In this document: piece after piece, positions 19,457-46,855 of the stretch
Numbering within the stretch: position 1 is the first letter of the stretch
Layout of the letters: each line of letters begins with the position of its first letter
NCBI RefSeq assembly: GCF_030811855.1
Contig: NZ_JAUSRN010000010.1
Location: forward strand, 97,001-161,000
Direction: 5' to 3'
DNA: 64,000 nt
Source: Variovorax paradoxus
GTDB taxonomy: Bacteria; Pseudomonadota; Gammaproteobacteria; Burkholderiales; Burkholderiaceae_C
Made by a program: the position numbers and the translations under genes
The notes under the pieces: generated by a model
Databases searched by the model: none
Seen by the model: the letters and a program-made list of their open reading frames with translations, nothing else
Told to the model about the DNA's origin: nothing

Positions 19457-20005
19457 CTACTTCGCCATTGCTGCGAGCCTGCGCGCCGCCGGGCTCAACA
19501 CGTGGCCGAAGCGCTGCGGCAAGTCGCCCGCGCGCACCGCATCGGGCGTCCACAAGCCCTGCTCCACGGCCTCGGCGGCCAGTGCCACGTCCTGCGTATG
19601 GACCAGCCCAAGACCGAGCGGCGTGGCAAGGTAGAGCCGGCCCAGCTCATCAAGCAGGCAGGCCGAGATGGCATCGACAGGCTGCCCGGTGTGGGCCGTG
19701 ACGGGAAAGTCCTTGTCGTCGGCAATGCGCCAGACGAAAGGCGCGGCCTCCAGTTCAACGTAGACGCGCTGCGGGCCGTTCTGGAAGAACCACTGGCCTT
19801 CTGCGTCGCGGTCGTAGTTGCGCTGGATGAAGTCGATCAGCTTTTCGTGCCGCAGCATCGAACCCTTGGCGGTGGTGAAGGGCCCTTGCGACTGCGTGCG
19901 GTCGTCGCGCATGTACCAGTTGCCGCGCGCATCGAGGCCCAGCCAGCCGTAGCAGTGCGGCACGTTGGGCCACTTGGCAAGTGCCTGTTTGACGATGTCG
20001 TCCAT
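19457..20005 (-). CDS. Conserved uncharacterised protein (DUF family, Burkholderiales)
   Basis: A 182-residue soluble protein beginning MDDIVKQALAKWPNVPHCYGW and continuing GLDARGNWYMRDDRTQ, then KLIDFIQRNYDRDAEGQWFF and a C-terminal GHVLSPAARRL segment. No signal peptide or membrane span. I recognise it as a conserved betaproteobacterial family without a known role; I cannot name the DUF number with certainty. ATG 20005 is the first codon giving this N-terminus. Only 4 bp separate it from the hydrolase gene upstream, so the two are probably co-transcribed. Confidence 0.72.
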   Translation of the reverse strand: MDDIVKQALAKWPNVPHCYGWLGLDARGNWYMRDDRTQSQGPFTTAKGSMLRHEKLIDFIQRNYDRDAEGQWFFQNGPQRVYVELEAAPFVWRIADDKDFPVTAHTGQPVDAISACLLDELGRLYLATPLGLGLVHTQDVALAAEAVEQGLWTPDAVRAGDLPQRFGHVLSPAARRLAAMAK

Positions 20006-22861: not shown

Positions 22862-23653
<792 letters not shown>

Positions 23654-36872: not shown

Positions 36873-36881
36873 CTTTGACTT

Positions 36882-37127
36882 CCTCCCTCCCCTCCCGGGG
36901 AGGGTTGGGGTGGGGGCAAGCGGCGTTACCACAGGGCACGCTCTGCCCGCCCCCATCCCAGCCTTCCCCCAGAGGGGGAAGGAGCAAATCCCTCAGGCCG
37001 ATGGCGGCATTCTTTTCTCCCTCCCCTTCCGGGGGAGGGTTGGGGTGAGGGCAAGCGGCGTTGCCACAGGGCACGCTCTGCCCGCCCCCATCCCAGCCTT
37101 CCCCCAGAGGGGGAAGGAGCAAATCCC
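36882..37127. repeat. Tandem REP-like palindromic repeats, period 135 bp (R2, R3)
   Basis: Two tandem copies of a unit made of CCTCCC...GGGAGGGTTGGGGTGGGGGC, a spacer with GCACGCTCTGCCCG, then CCCATCCCAGCCTTCCCC. AGGGTTGGGG recurs at 36901 and 37036. The junction also copies the last bases of pdeM (TCAGGCCGATGGCGGCA versus TCAATCCGATGCAGGCA). Located between the convergent TPM gene and pdeM; large hairpins could terminate both. Confidence 0.85.
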
Positions 37128-38359: not shown

Positions 38360-41300
38360 TCACAGCGGCGGCAAAGGCCGCGAGCGACGTGAGGGCGGCC
38401 TGCGCTGGCGCTGCGGCGCGGGCGGCTTGCCCGGCCCTTCCTGGCCGAACGCGAGCGTGCTCTTCACGCGTTCGATCCCGCCGGCCGTGACCACGCCGCC
38501 TGCGGCTTTTTCCAACTGCTCGACCATGCGCGCAATGCGGTCGGCCACGTTCTCGTTCGACAGCTTTTCGCGGAACAGCTCGACCATGAGCGGAAACGAG
38601 AACGGCGTGGGCCGCTCGAGCGTCTTCAATACCAGCTGCTGATTCGCCATGCGCTCGAGGCTCGCGCGCAGGCGGCTGATCTCGAGCTCTTGCGCGAGCA
38701 GCTCCTGCTCGGCCTGCAGCAGCAGCTTGTTCGATGGGTCGTACTTGCGGAACACCTCCCAGAACAGCGACGACGAGGCTTGCAGCTGCCTGCTGCTGCG
38801 CTTCTCGCCAGGGTAGCCCTGGAAGATCAGGCCGGAGACGCGCGCAATCTCGCGAAAGCGGCGCTGCGCCAGCTCGCCCGCGTTGAGCGACGCGAGCACC
38901 TCGTGCAGCAACTGCGCATGCGCATCGTCGCCTTGCGGCAGCCGCAGCACCTGCGGCAGCAGCACAGGCCAGTCGACCGGCGTGGCGCTCAGCAGTTCGA
39001 AACCGTAGTCGTTCACCGCGATGGAGAAGGTTCGCGCATCGTGTTGCGCCACGCGCCAGGCCAGGAGGCTCGCGAGCCCCATGTGAACGTGCCGCCCGGC
39101 AAAGGGATAGAGGAACAGGTGCGAGCCTTCGCGCGTGACGAGCGTTTCGGCCAGCAGGGTCTGCGGCGTGGGCAAGGCCGACCATTGCTGCTGAATTTCC
39201 AGCAACGGCCGCACGCACTGCAGCTCGGGCGATTCATAGCGCCCTTCGCCGGCGAGTGCGAGCTGCTGCACCACCGCATCGGCCAGCGTCGTCGACAGCG
39301 GCATGCGCCCGCCATTCCAGCGCGGTACCGCGGCGCGCTTGCCGGTGGCGCGCCGCACCCAGGCCGTCATGTCGTGGATGCGTACGAGTTCGAGCAGCCG
39401 GCCGCCGAACAGGAAGCAGTCGCCGGGCTTCATGCGCGCGACAAAGCCTTCTTCGACGCTGCCGATCTTTGCGCCGCCCATGTACTGCACCGCCATGCTG
39501 GCGTCGCTCACGATGGTGCCGATGTTCATGCGGTGGCGCCGCGCGAGCCGCGCATCCGGCACGCGCCAAACGCCTTCGGCATCGGGCACGGCACGGCGGT
39601 AGTCGGGATAGGCGGCCAGCGAAGGCCCGCCCTGCGACACGAAGGACAGGCACCATTCCCAACTCTCCTGCGACAGGTTGGCATAGGCAGCGGTGCCGCG
39701 CACTTCCGCATACAGGTCGTCGGGTATGAAGCCGCCACCCAGCGCCACCGTCACCAAATGCTGCACCAGCACATCGAGCGGCTGCGCCGGCGTGTGGCGC
39801 GCTTCGATGTGGCCGGCCGCGATGGCCGCGCGCGCCGCGGCGCCTTCGACCATCTCGATGCTGTGCGTAGGCACGAGCGTGACCCGCGACGGCCGGCCCG
39901 GCGCATGCCCCGAGCGTCCCGCGCGCTGCAGCAGCCGTGCCACGCCCTTCGGCGAGCCGATCTGCAGCACGCGTTCGACCGGCAGGAAGTCCACGCCCAG
40001 GTCCAGGCTCGACGTACAGACCACCGCCTTGAGCTCGCCGTTCTTGAGGCCGAGCTCGACCCACTCGCGCACCGCGCGGTCCAGCGAGCCGTGGTGCAGC
40101 GCAATGATTCCGGCCCATTCGGGACGCGCCTCGAGCATCGCCTGGTACCAGATCTCCGACTGCGAGCGCGTGTTGGTGAACACCAGCGTGGTGCTGCTGG
40201 CGGCAATCTCGTCGAGCACCTGCGGCAGCATGGTGAGGCCCAGATGGCCGCCCCACGGAAAGCGTTCGGCGCGGCCGGGCAGCAGCGAATCGACGACCAG
40301 TTTCTTGGGCACCTGGCCCTGTACCAGCACACCCTCTTCATCGCCGAGCAATGCGTGCATGGCCTCTTGCAGGTTACCCAGCGTGGCCGACATGCCCCAG
40401 ACCGCGAGCCCCGGGTTCCAACGCCTGAGCCGCGCAAGCGCCAGCTGCACCTGCACGCCGCGCTTGTTGCCGAGCAGCTCATGCCATTCGTCGACCACCA
40501 CCATCTTCACGCGGCCCAAGACCTCGCTTGCATCGGCGCGCGCGAGCAGCAGCGACAGGCTCTCGGGCGTGGTGACGAGCACGGTCGGCAGGCGCTCGTT
40601 CTGCGCGGCGCGCTCGGCCGACGAGGTGTCGCCGCTGCGCGCGCCGACGCTCCAGGGGTGCACCTCGGCGCCCAGAGCTTCGAGCGGCTGCTTGATCGCG
40701 CGCAGCGTGTCAGCCGCGAGCGCGCGCATGGGGGTGAGCCACAGCACGGTGAGCGGCGGGGACGCGGGCCGCGCGGTTTCCTTCCGGGCTTGCGAGAACA
40801 CCTGCAGCGCGCCGAGCCAAACCGCATAGGTCTTGCCAGCGCCGGTGGTGGCGTGCAGCATGCCGGACCTGCCTTCGGCGATGGCTTTCCACACCTCGCG
40901 CTGGAACTTGAAGGGCCTCCAGCCGCGCGCGGCAAACCATGCATCGAGCGCCGCCTTGACGGTGGTCTTGCTCCTTCCCCTCCCGGGGGAAGGCTGGGAT
41001 GGGGGCACGCGGCCTTCGACAAGCGGCTGATCGTTGATACGCCGCTTGCCCCCACCCCTGCCCTCCCCCGGGAGGGGAGGGAGAAATGCGGGGCCCGACG
41101 GCTCGGTTGGGTTGTCTTCTCTCTTGCTCCTTCCCCTTCCGGGGGAAGGCTGGGATGGGGGCACGCGGCCTTCGAGGGGCGGCTGATCGTTGATACGCCG
41201 CTTGCCCCCACCCCTGCCCTCCCCCGGGAGGGGAGGGAGAAATGCGGGGACCGACGGCTCGGTTGGGTGGTCTTCTGTCTTGCTCCTTCCCCTTCCGGGG

Positions 41301-41422
41301 GAAGGCTGGGATGGGGGCACGCGGCCTTCGACAAGCGGCTGATCGTTGATGCGCCGCTTGCCCCCTCCCCTGCCCTCCCCCAGAGGGGGAGGGAGAAATG
41401 CGGGGTCCGGATCAGCTGTCAT
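38360..41422 (-). CDS. Ligase-associated Lhr-type DEXH helicase with repeat-derived N-terminus
   Basis: A 1020-residue superfamily-2 helicase. Real helicase sequence begins at about residue 153 ([15 protein letters not shown]) with [14 protein letters not shown] (Walker A), [16 protein letters not shown] (DEXH), [14 protein letters not shown], then the Lhr core [33 protein letters not shown] and [14 protein letters not shown]. The first ~152 residues are three in-frame Pro/Gly/Arg-rich copies of a 52-residue unit translated from REP-like DNA. No other start codon precedes the helicase domain. The ATG at 41422 overlaps the ligase stop as ATGA, so it is the genuine start and the repeats have inserted just behind it. 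Function: DNA repair with PdeM, ligase and exonuclease. Confidence 0.85.
40967..41410. repeat. REP-like tandem repeat, 2.8 copies of 156 bp (R4-R6)
   Basis: CTTGCTCCTTCCCC begins at 40967, 41123 and 41279, giving an exact 156-bp period. Each unit holds an inverted REP pair (CTCCCGGGGGAAGG...CCTGCCCTCCCCCGGGAGGGG). 156 is 52 codons, and the array is translated in frame as the helicase N-terminus. The last unit is partial and runs to the start codon. Confidence 0.92.
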
Positions 41423-43074
41423 GACGGCAACAACGCGGCGAGCGTCTGCAAAGTATCAGCCTCCGCCACCCGCTTGTCCTCGCGCCAACGCAGCATCCGC
41501 GGAAAGCGCACGGCGATGCCGCTCTTGTGGCGCGTGCTGCGTGCGATGCCCTCGAAGCCGAGCTCGAACACCAGCGTGGGCTCCACGCTGCGCACCGGAC
41601 CGAAGCTCTCGACCGTGGTCTTGCGGATGATCGCGTCCACGCGCGCCATTTCGGCATCCGTCAGGCCCGAATAGGCCTTGGCAAAGGGCACGAGCTTGCG
41701 GTCATCCTGTTCGGGCGGGCCGTCCCACACGGCGAAGGTGTAGTCGCTGTAGAGGCTCGCGCGCCGCCCATGGCCGCGCTGCGCATAGATCAGCACCGCG
41801 TCGATGCTGAGCGGATCGATCTTCCACTTCCACCACACGCCCACGTCCTTGGTGCGGCCCACGCCGTACTGTGCGTCGCGGCGCTTGAGCATCATGCCCT
41901 CCACGCCCATGCTGCGAGCCGCTTCGCGCTGGCGTGCCAGATCGCTCCACTCGATGCCCGTGAGCATCGGACTGGGCAGCAGCGACGGATGCTGCACGCG
42001 CGTGACGAGTTCGTCGAGCAGCAGCCGGCGCTCCGACTGCGGCAGCACACGCAGGTCGCGCCCTTCCCATTCGAGGATGTCGTAGGCCAGCAGCACCACC
42101 GGAATTTCGCGCAGCAGCTTCGCGCCCAGGGTCTTGCGTCCGATGCGCTTCTGCAGCTCCGCAAAGGGCTGCACCCTGTCCTCGCGCCAGACGGCAATTT
42201 CGCCGTCTAGAACTGTGCCGTCCGGCAGCGCGTCGCCCAGCACGGCAAGTTCGGGAAAGCGCTCGGTCACCAGTTCTTCGCCGCGCGACCACAGCCACAC
42301 TGCGCCTGCGCGCTTTACCAGTTGCGCGCGGATGCCGTCCCATTTCCATTCGACGATCCAGTCGGCCGGCGGCCCCAGCACGGCATCGAACTGTTCGAGC
42401 GGCAGGTTGAACGCGTGCGCGAGGAAGAACGGATATGGCTGCCCGCTGGTCTTCTGCACCTGCTCCGCACCCGACTCAGGCGCGATCAGCGCGCGATAGT
42501 CTTCCGCCCGCGGCCGGCCGCCGATGTGGGTGTAGCCCATGAGCCGCTGCGCCACGCGTTTGGGATCGATGCCGCCCACCGCCGCGAGCGCCTGCGTGAC
42601 CTGCAGCTTCGACACGCCCACACGGAATGCGCCGGTGATGAGCTTGAAGTACACCAGCCGCTCTTCGGCCGCGAGCTGCCGCCACTGCGCGCGCAGCCGC
42701 GTGGGCAGTTCGTCGGGCGCCGACTTGCCTGCATCCCGCAGCGGTAGCAGGTGCTCCTCGACCCAGCTCGCAAGGCCGAGATCGTGCGCCTCGGTGGGCG
42801 ACGGCAAGAGCAGCGAGATGGTTTCCGCCAGGTCGCCGACCGCTTCGTAGCTCTCGTCGAAGAGCCATTCGGGAAGGCCCGCCGCTTCCTGCGCGAGCAG
42901 ACGCAGCAGCTTGTTGGGCACGAGCTGGCGCGGCTTGCCGCCGGCCAGGAAGTACACGGCCCATGCCGCATCGGCAGGGTCGGCTTCGCGCAGGTAGCGC
43001 TGCAGCGCGGCTTGCTTGGCAAGACTCGAAGTGCTGGCATCGAGCTCGCGGTAGAGCGCCGCAAAGTCCTTCAT
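41419..43074 (-). CDS. ATP-dependent DNA ligase (repair type)
   Basis: A 551-residue ATP-dependent ligase. After an N-terminal DNA-binding domain, the nucleotidyltransferase core carries motif [15 protein letters not shown] (adenylated Lys in K-x-D-G), motif [13 protein letters not shown], motif [16 protein letters not shown] and motif [13 protein letters not shown], then an OB-fold. This is the ligase of the ligase-Lhr-exonuclease-PdeM repair group. It overlaps the exonuclease upstream and the helicase downstream by 4 bp each (ATGA). Confidence 0.93.
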
Positions 43075-44183
43075 GCCTTTGCTCCTTCCCCTCCCGGGGG
43101 AAGGCTGGGATGGGGGCCGCCAGCGTCCGCGTCGAGCGCCACTTGCCCCCTCCCCAACCCTCCCCCGGAAGGGGAGGGAGTTTCCTCGTCGTCCTCATCG
43201 CCGTATTCGGTCTTGAAGCCCTGCGCTTCCAATCCGTTCTCGGTGAGCCAGCGCACCATCACCGCCACGCTGCCGTGGGTCACGAACACCCGGCTGGCAC
43301 CCGTGCCGGCAATGGCCTGCTGCAGGCCGGGCCAATCGGCGTGGTCGGACATCACGAAGCCGCGGTCCACGCCGCGCCGGCGGCGCGTGCCGCGCAGCTG
43401 CATCCAGCCGCTCGCGAAAGCGTCGGCGTAGTTGCCGAAGCGGCGCATCCACGGTGTGCCCTGCGCCGAGGGCGGCGCCAGCACCAGTGCGCGCTTGAGC
43501 AGCGCGGCATCGACACCCGGGTCGGTCACGCGCAATGTCTGGGGCAAGGCCACGCCCGCGGCGCGGTACACCGCGTTGAGCGGCTCGACGGCACCATGCA
43601 CCACGATCGGCCCGATGGTGGTGTCCACGCCATGCAGGATGCGCTGCGCCTTGCCGAAGGCATAGCAGAACAGCACCGACGCGCGGCCGGCCTCCGCGTT
43701 GCCGCGCCACCAGGCGTCGATCTCAGCGAACAGCGCGGCCTGCGTAGGCCAGCGGTAGATCGGCAGGCCGAAGGTCGATTCGGTGATGAAGGTGTCGCAA
43801 GCAACGGGCTCGAAGGGCGCGCAGGTGCCGTCGGGCTCTGTCTTGTAGTCGCCCGAGGCGACCCACACGCGCCCGCCGTGTTCCAGCCGGACCTGCGCCG
43901 AGCCCAGCACGTGGCCGGCCGGATGCAGCGAGACGCGCACGCCGTGGTGCTCGATGGCTTCGCCATAGCCGAGCGTCTGCAATGCGATGTCGCTGCCCAG
44001 GCGCACGCGCAAGGTGCCCGCGCTGTCGGTGTGCGCCAGGTAGTGCGCATGGCCGATGCGCGCGTGGTCCGAGTGCGCGTGCGTGATGACGGCGCGCGCC
44101 ACCGGCCGCCAGGGGTCGATGTAGAAATCGCCCGGCGGGCAATAGAGGCCTTCGGGGCGGGCGATGACCAGGTCGTCGGGCAT
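43071..44183 (-). CDS. Ligase-associated MBL-fold DNA exonuclease
   Basis: A 370-residue metallo-beta-lactamase/beta-CASP-like nuclease. Motifs: AVITHAHSDHARIGH (HxHxDH), LHPAGHVLGSAQVRLE, VWVASGDYKTEPDG, VFVTHGSVAVMVRWL and the C-terminal FVMSDHADWPGL. First gene of the exo-lig-helicase operon. The last ~35 residues (PSPSGGGLGRGQ... to the stop) are translated from a REP-like repeat, not from the family's usual C-terminus. Start at ATG 44183 (MPDDLVIARPEGLYCP); ATG 44192 adds three residues. Confidence 0.88.
   Translation of the reverse strand: MPDDLVIARPEGLYCPPGDFYIDPWRPVARAVITHAHSDHARIGHAHYLAHTDSAGTLRVRLGSDIALQTLGYGEAIEHHGVRVSLHPAGHVLGSAQVRLEHGGRVWVASGDYKTEPDGTCAPFEPVACDTFITESTFGLPIYRWPTQAALFAEIDAWWRGNAEAGRASVLFCYAFGKAQRILHGVDTTIGPIVVHGAVEPLNAVYRAAGVALPQTLRVTDPGVDAALLKRALVLAPPSAQGTPWMRRFGNYADAFASGWMQLRGTRRRRGVDRGFVMSDHADWPGLQQAIAGTGASRVFVTHGSVAVMVRWLTENGLEAQGFKTEYGDEDDEETPSPSGGGLGRGQVALDADAGGPHPSLPPGGEGAKA
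43081..43180. repeat. REP-like inverted repeat inside the exonuclease 3' end (R7)
   Basis: Palindromes CTCCCGGGGGAAGG and CCTCCCCCGGAAGGGGAGGG in opposite orientation, same family as R1-R8. The array lies in the last codons of the exonuclease and ends just before the ATGA overlap with the ligase. Confidence 0.85.
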
Positions 44184-44271
44184 GGCGCACATCGTAGGCC
44201 CGCACCCCGCTCTTCGCGCAGACGGGCCGACGCGAAGCTGTGTCGGCGCGAGCCTACTCGCCGCTCTGCGC

Positions 44272-46450: not shown

Positions 46451-46855
46451 CTACAGCGACAGCAGGCGCTGGAAGAAGGAGCGATAGCGCCTCAGGGCCA
46501 GGCGCAGGTTCTCTGTCGAGGCCTGATTTGCCGTGTCCGTTCCACCATCGACCGCGTTGCGTTCGCTGGAGAAGGTCTGACCCAGGTCATCCAGGACCTG
46601 GCGGACCAGCTGATCGGCCTGGCGCACCGCCTGCTTCGGATCGTCGACGAAGCCGATCTGCACGGCATCCCAGCTGGCGCGAAAGTCTCGCGCCGCATCG
46701 GGAGAGAAAAGCGGCTCCAGCGAGTCGTCTTCACTCCTGGCGGGTGCTCTCGTCTCGGCCGCCCTCGTCTCGGCCGCCCTCGTCTCGGGCATGGGGCGTT
46801 GGTCCAAGTCGTCCGGCGCGATGGCGCGGTCTGCCTGGGTCGATTCACGGTTCAT
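46451..46855 (-). CDS. Hypothetical protein, paired with the next gene
   Basis: 134 residues. The N-terminal 45 residues are charged and contain a short ETRAAETRAAETRAP repeat. The C-terminal part has FRASWDAVQIGFVDDPKQAVRQADQLVRQVLDDLG, which closely resembles FSKAWNSLQAEFVDNPQGAVAQADELVRELML in the gene upstream. The two overlap as ATGA. Function unknown. Confidence 0.68.
   Translation of the reverse strand: MNRESTQADRAIAPDDLDQRPMPETRAAETRAAETRAPARSEDDSLEPLFSPDAARDFRASWDAVQIGFVDDPKQAVRQADQLVRQVLDDLGQTFSSERNAVDGGTDTANQASTENLRLALRRYRSFFQRLLSL

Follow-up and report, generated by a model that had tools for sequence, protein, structure and literature searches.

A REP-like palindrome array lying in frame at the ligase–helicase junction of a Variovorax repair operon

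An exonuclease, a ligase and an Lhr-Core helicase reportedly form a repair gene cluster, a description credited to Ejaz and Shuman in 2018, and translational coupling by 4-nt gene overlaps is said to have been described by Huber et al. in 2019. A later study describes reporter work in which a separation of ~20 nt nearly abolished overlap coupling (Huber et al., 2023; PMC10666635). For Pseudomonas putida, the Lhr-Core protein is described as comprising the core only (PMC8301817). Palindromic repeats that lie in frame within genes have been described by Di Nocera et al. (2013; PMC3733652); they are often paired, and many are found in repair genes (uvrA, recB and DNA ligase among them). The REP clusters encode 43–82 amino acids, and the translation of N-terminal cases was doubted (PMC3733652). 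Rickettsia palindromic elements (RPEs; Ogata et al., 2000) are selfish palindromes of ~150 bp that insert in frame and add a peptide, as outlined in PMC10969869.

We analysed a stretch of 64,000 nucleotides of Variovorax paradoxus DNA (NCBI RefSeq assembly GCF_030811855.1, contig NZ_JAUSRN010000010.1, positions 97,001 to 161,000), hereafter the window. An earlier note on this DNA had proposed that a REP array is translated as a new N-terminus of an Lhr-type helicase. Here, the array is compared with its counterparts at the same junction in related genomes and with copies of the same element elsewhere.

The repair operon and its palindromes

The helicase gene (38360–41422, minus strand) encodes 1020 amino acids including the extension and belongs to the ligase-associated DEXH-box helicases of the Lhr-Core type. 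It scores 1111.6 bits against TIGR04121 (cut-off 850) over residues 159–971 and model positions 3–803 of 804, and contains the Pfam families WH_Lhr, DEAD_assoc, DEAD and Helicase_C. Its upstream neighbours on the same strand also exceed their own cut-offs; these are an ATP-dependent DNA ligase of 551 amino acids (41419–43074; TIGR04120, 719.6 bits, cut-off 400) and a ligase-associated exonuclease (43071–44192; TIGR04122, 498.3 bits, cut-off 325, residues 9–333). The ligase stop and the helicase start share the four nucleotides ATGA (41419–41422, minus strand), and the exonuclease stop likewise overlaps the ligase start by 4 nt. By the criterion of a stop and a start sharing 4 or 1 nt, the ligase–helicase pair is a candidate for termination-reinitiation coupling.

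A tandem array at 40966–41409 repeats with a period of exactly 156 bp; TRF counts 2.8 copies, with 94% matches, no indels and a score of 797. On the minus strand, it comprises a 156-bp unit adjoining the helicase domain (40966–41121), a middle unit of 156 bp that is 96% identical (41122–41277), and a unit next to the start codon (41278–41409) with 132 nt matched at ~95% identity. Where the earlier note had counted three units of exactly 156 bp, the period is exact and the array consists of two full units and a partial third. Each unit is made of two REP-like palindromes in inverted orientation plus a linker, with arms of 46 nt that are 87% complementary and 27 nt apart. The open reading frame runs from the ATG overlapping the ligase stop through the array into the helicase, as had been claimed, and stays open for all 1020 codons. 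Residues 1–152 (40967–41422, minus strand) are the N-terminal extension built from the REP-doublet array.

The extension is rich in Pro, Gly and Arg, as described earlier, and has a net charge of +8; residues 1–151 matched no Pfam family at E 0.1. AlphaFold2 gave pLDDT values of 24–31 over residues 1–150, within a model that was poor overall (mean 53.2, pTM 0.40, 11 sequences). The low model confidence, which spans residues 1–155, lends weak support to the disorder ascribed to the extension in the earlier note, a probable feature.

The element is REP/BIME-like, in that it consists of short dispersed palindromes in inverted pairs. When the window's own genome was searched with one unit, 63 matches were obtained on both strands, most of them spanning unit positions ~1–3 to 118–127, and 41 further non-overlapping copies were aligned from 38 fetched stretches of this genome. 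Of the 40 dispersed copies spanning at least 110 positions, 18 have a net length that departs from the unit length by a multiple of 3. The unit lacks a GTAG/CTAC/GACG tag; its sole CGTC is at unit position 22, in the linker and not at a palindrome foot. A RAYT was considered as the mover of the element and is a doubtful candidate: the one Y1_Tnp gene found above the cut-off in this genome has no element copies in the surrounding 1.9 kb (best match 32 nt, E 0.01). A plasmid search returned five records with short matches.

The helicase gene, the exonuclease tail and, at two sites, one long uvrA all contain this dispersed element in frame. A single REP doublet at 43079–43180 (C10:140079–140180 in the unit search) constitutes the in-frame C-terminal tail of the exonuclease, which the earlier note on REP insertion had overlooked. 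Across 32 relatives' loci with both genes inside the fetched flank, the exonuclease/ligase junction has a 4-nt overlap in 31 (L025 is at +1). The exonuclease tail, its peptides judged by eye, is REP-derived and of varying length in 23 of these loci and short (7–18 residues) in nine.

Several further occurrences were observed. The uvrA of 1988 codons (L211, G000 contig C3) contains two in-frame REP doublets, at 19652–19770 and 23007–23116. Among 25 genus genomes searched for the first of these, nine gave a continuous match and 14 matched its flanks only; in one the match is truncated at the end of a contig, and one gave none. At L193 601–709 (G000:C4:6861–6969), an element bridges, in frame, a C-terminus resembling a dehydrogenase and a protein resembling cytochrome c (names assigned by eye), a possible fusion. 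Two more elements of the same family are found side by side in the window at 36880–36987 and 37014–37122. Perfect short tandem repeats are also present in the window at 252–296 (GGCCCA, 7.5 copies) and 46749–46788 (15 bp, 2.7 copies).

The ligase–helicase junction across relatives

From 80 named loci and a search of 101 genus genomes, we obtained 141 loci with both ligase and helicase, of which 96 are distinct (the identical loci L009 and L102 were counted once). Six of the 96 were set aside: L010, in which the ligase end is frameshifted, and L015, L061, L063, L140 and L144, in which the genes are non-adjacent or the start is lost. The ligase stop and helicase start form an NTGA 4-nt overlap in 89 of the 90 distinct junctions that remained; in the exception, L038, the ligase stop and an in-frame GTG overlap by 8 nt. 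The helicase is in frame from the start at the ligase stop in 77 of the 90, comprising 41 junctions in which the insert is absent or a short spacer is present, 35 that carry the element (34 and, in addition, L086, missed by a motif filter) and L066 with unrelated sequence. Twelve junctions are one phase off, and L087 is in the other phase (phase 0).

The element is present at the junction in 38 distinct related loci and is in frame in 36 of them, 35 with the ligase-stop ATG and L010 with an ATG of its own. One unit is found in 30 of these 36 loci, two units in one (L088), three in the window and in Variovorax sp. OV700 (L001), and seven in Variovorax sp. OK212 (L009), whose extension reaches ~366 residues; the other two have remnants of 20 (L115) and 25 (L089) residues. 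Nine distinct loci are empty of the element and start directly with M-x-K-x-VKxALDAWF from the ATGA. By parsimony on a 52-row tree, there were at least 8 changes in element presence or absence and, among the element-bearing loci, at least 20 length changes, all of them multiples of 3, with L087 and L114 off phase besides. Certain linkers are common to the window, OV700 and L088 and others to L009 and L114, which suggests that tandem expansion took place independently at least twice. The three-unit array probably arose directly from a one-unit extension and not from a bare gene.

These comparisons bear on what had been proposed earlier. Genes without the repeats, which the note had suggested looking for, exist in the nine empty loci, and unit number does change in frame between relatives (1, 2, 3 and 7 units). 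The claim that the expansion preserved the reading frame holds on the tree, apart from L087 and L114. The guess that the ancestral gene began directly at this ATG comes close to the start of the empty loci, with the qualification that the forerunner of this array probably already had one unit. The supposedly new N-terminus is in frame as claimed but is not private to the strain, as 36 distinct loci have an in-frame element.

For the Variovorax junctions with a 2-nt distance (L003, L004, L007, L017, L023, L075, L104 and L122), the tree shows empty loci intermingled with filled ones. The empty ones have nearly the same start, and exact loss or allele exchange are both possible. Recombinational import of an empty allele was considered as the cause of the losses and gained little support: the stretches flanking the junction mostly keep the neighbours expected for the species; the left flank of L017 is a weak contrary hint.

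The earlier note on in-frame REP insertion had also overlooked the out-of-phase relatives, in which the insert becomes a relay micro-ORF. Of the 12 phase-1 loci, 11 have an ORF that begins at the ligase stop and terminates in an NTGA, the NTG of which is the first codon of the helicase frame. This relay ORF is 8–45 codons long in eight loci (L040, L050, L056, L059, L148, L153, L154 and L157) and 213 and 260 codons long in L047 and L070, respectively. In L114, which has an out-of-frame array of about five units, it is 106 codons long; two REP units are read, followed by a GTGA restart within the array. The relay peptides were judged by eye to be REP-derived in 5 of the 11 loci (L050, L059, L153, L154 and L114). 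Shuffling of the eight short loci gave an exact relay by chance in 1.8–5.7% per locus, a range in which the starts were chosen knowing the outcome, several loci had two to four candidate starts and some loci are close relatives. The intergenic ORF of L047 and L070 has ATGA overlaps at both ends and resembles another repeated sequence.

Two loci break the simple frame rule: L114, which is rescued by its GTGA restart, and L087, which has no relay ORF and lies at the edge of an apparently rearranged duplicate. The same genome (L087, L111; G033) holds another copy of the helicase; the two are identical over 2000 nt, and this second copy is joined in frame to the end of a PilT-like ATPase preceding it (name assigned by eye). 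The second copy looks like a duplication or an assembly fault, and L087 thus appears rearranged.

Frame retention and alternative readings of the array

Two intergenic copies of the element, located between genes read as convergent by a codon-usage score, were followed through the genus as controls. One copy keeps its phase relative to the window's genome in 4 of 14 loci and the other in 2 of 10 (6 of 24 together), and many 1-nt indels occur within the element. At the ligase–helicase junction, 36 of 38 element-bearing loci are in frame, which differs from the intergenic controls with a Fisher p of 1e-8 and from the dispersed copies (18 of 40) with a Fisher p of 1.3e-6, although relatives share ancestry and both values overstate the evidence. 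In L086, a deletion of 2 nt near the start of the element and one of 1 nt near its end cancel each other, so that about half of the extension is read in another frame; a GTG is present at helicase residues VKAALD. The retained frame, the frameshifts that cancel and the lack of alternative starts in some relatives all speak for translation, and these sequence comparisons make it very probable that the array is made as an N-terminal extension of the helicase.

A draft genome of 41 contigs is a setting in which short repeats are prone to mis-assembly, and the array could in principle be an artefact of this kind. The units are not identical to one another (96%, and ~95% over 132 nt), however, and the independent OV700 genome has a three-unit array with its own substitutions while another genome has seven units, which leaves an artefact extremely unlikely. 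An improbable alternative is that the array is an untranslated 5′ spacer, with helicase translation initiating at an internal GTG (residue 139 in the window) or at some non-standard codon just ahead of the domain. The earlier statement that no other start codon precedes the helicase domain does not hold, as in-frame GTG codons occur on the minus strand at residues 35 (41318–41320), 87 (41162–41164) and 139 (41006–41008). The last of these is kept in the window, and the TIGR04121 match begins at residue 159. Di Nocera et al. argue that most REPs at the 5′ ends of ORFs in three species may be non-coding (PMC3733652), and several elements in the same genome immediately precede an ATG (L175, L177, L179 and L181). 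Against such a spacer, 10 of 34 REP-derived extensions have no ATG, GTG or TTG from after Met1 to ten codons into the helicase, and the GTG has been swapped for other codons in many relatives; if CTG, ATC, ATA and ATT are allowed as starts, an alternative is present in 35 of 35 extensions. The length of an untranslated spacer should also drift as it does in the intergenic controls, and that of the junction does not. Moreover, the out-of-phase lineages do gain a start codon right before the domain, and it overlaps the stop of an upstream micro-ORF.

Translation need not mean that the peptide itself is useful. That the extension is a selected functional part, such as a basic tail binding DNA or a partner, would be in line with its presence in most of the genus clade and with its net charge, which is positive for 31 of the 34 extensions (+4 at the median, +8 for both three-unit forms). 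Among 29 single-unit extensions, diversity at codon positions 1, 2 and 3 is nonetheless nearly flat (0.188/0.211/0.199, against 0.103/0.071/0.282 at the helicase start), and pN/pS is 0.88, compared with 0.24 in the helicase and 0.085 at the ligase end. The other five frames of the extension give 0.75–1.03, two of them below the coding frame. Since the coding frame does not give the minimum among the six, codon statistics by themselves carry no signal of translation, and selection at the peptide level was rejected on the same figures. The half-shifted frame of L086, the at least 8 gains or losses, the remnants of 20 and 25 residues and the range of 0–7 units also count against a functional tail, which we regard as very unlikely. 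As far as these alignments indicate, the reading frame is preserved and the peptide is hardly constrained.

The palindromes could instead act as nucleic-acid structures, for example as hairpins in the mRNA that determine its stability or how much helicase is made, with translation being incidental. The predicted RNA folds are extremely stable, with z values of -5.1 for one unit and -11.6 across the array (s.d. below shuffles), and paired columns are strongly conserved. Compensatory changes, on the other hand, occur in just 2 of 35 pairs and the covariation term is ~0, so covariation was discarded as uninformative proof of RNA function. The dispersed copies keep their stems too, and conservation may therefore reflect the element and not the locus; the multiples of 3 would also be left unexplained. 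We consider this unlikely as a full explanation, while a hairpin role is compatible with, and can be added to, the ribosome relay set out below.

A proposed ribosome relay and its known counterparts

The reading we favour, and hold to be probably correct, is that selection keeps a ribosome relay from ligase to helicase, by which passenger palindromes become translated while the tail itself is neutral. A dispersed element of 118 bp, made of two inverted REP-like palindromes, would have inserted a single time, early in the history of the genus, directly after the helicase start codon. Ribosomes finishing the ligase would restart at the ATG of the ATGA and read through the element into the helicase, and the element would thus be translated as a Pro/Gly/Arg-rich, probably disordered extension. 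The selected trait would be the uninterrupted relay, either in the same frame or through a relay ORF overlapping at both ends, and not the peptide, such that length changes survive only when the relay is kept. In the window's lineage, gene start and element would have been duplicated in tandem to give three units.

The comparison of relatives supports this relay through in-frame retention, cancelling frameshifts, missing alternative starts, weak peptide constraint and relay micro-ORFs; from these we infer ribosome restart at the ATGA, coupling as the selected trait and neutrality of the tail. Given that coupling is nearly lost at ~20 nt in the reporter study cited above (PMC10666635), a restart behind an insert of 140–1090 nt would lose coupling. 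If helicase synthesis needs the ribosomes of the ligase, such an insert must therefore be read through or become a relay ORF, and both solutions occur among the junctions. A stronger version, in which the relay is selected so strongly that arriving palindromes must code and unit number (0–7) serves as an adjustable dial of helicase per ligase, seems decidedly doubtful; if it were true, a selfish element would have become the means by which a repair operon tunes its expression.

The junction offers a natural test of N-terminal REP translation, a question left open in PMC3733652, and gives easy experimental access, in a harmless soil bacterium, to the varying copy number of hairpins in a repair operon. 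It further suggests that a short gene overlap can be a selected trait in its own right, turning junk DNA into protein or relay micro-ORFs. Our literature searches on a REP extension at this ligase–helicase junction found nothing, and the accessible parts of the literature on overlap coupling yielded no description of a mobile palindrome forced into a coupled junction. A term search of PMC3733652 gave no mention of Variovorax.

The window shares the exonuclease, ATP-dependent ligase and Lhr-Core helicase families with the exo-ligase-Lhr-Core repair cluster. The P. putida protein is the core alone (PMC8301817), whereas the Variovorax helicase has a REP-derived extension. The operon resembles the 4-nt-overlap coupling systems in its ATGA/GTGA stop-start overlaps and in the presumed strong dependence on distance (Huber et al., 2023; PMC10666635). 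Like the REPs of Di Nocera et al. (PMC3733652), the Variovorax element consists of paired palindromes in frame in repair genes; it differs in having no GTAG/CGTC tag, in its position at a 4-nt overlap and in its 0–7 in-frame units, and the present case adds a frame test against intergenic orthologues. RPEs, as portrayed in PMC10969869, are likewise in-frame selfish palindromes, a likeness of behaviour. They are described inside unrelated genes, whereas the Variovorax insert lies between two genes of an operon, undergoes tandem expansion and can turn into an ORF of its own. The occurrence of REPs within repair genes was already known; what looks new is the coupling constraint, the relay ORFs and the polymorphism of 0–7 units.
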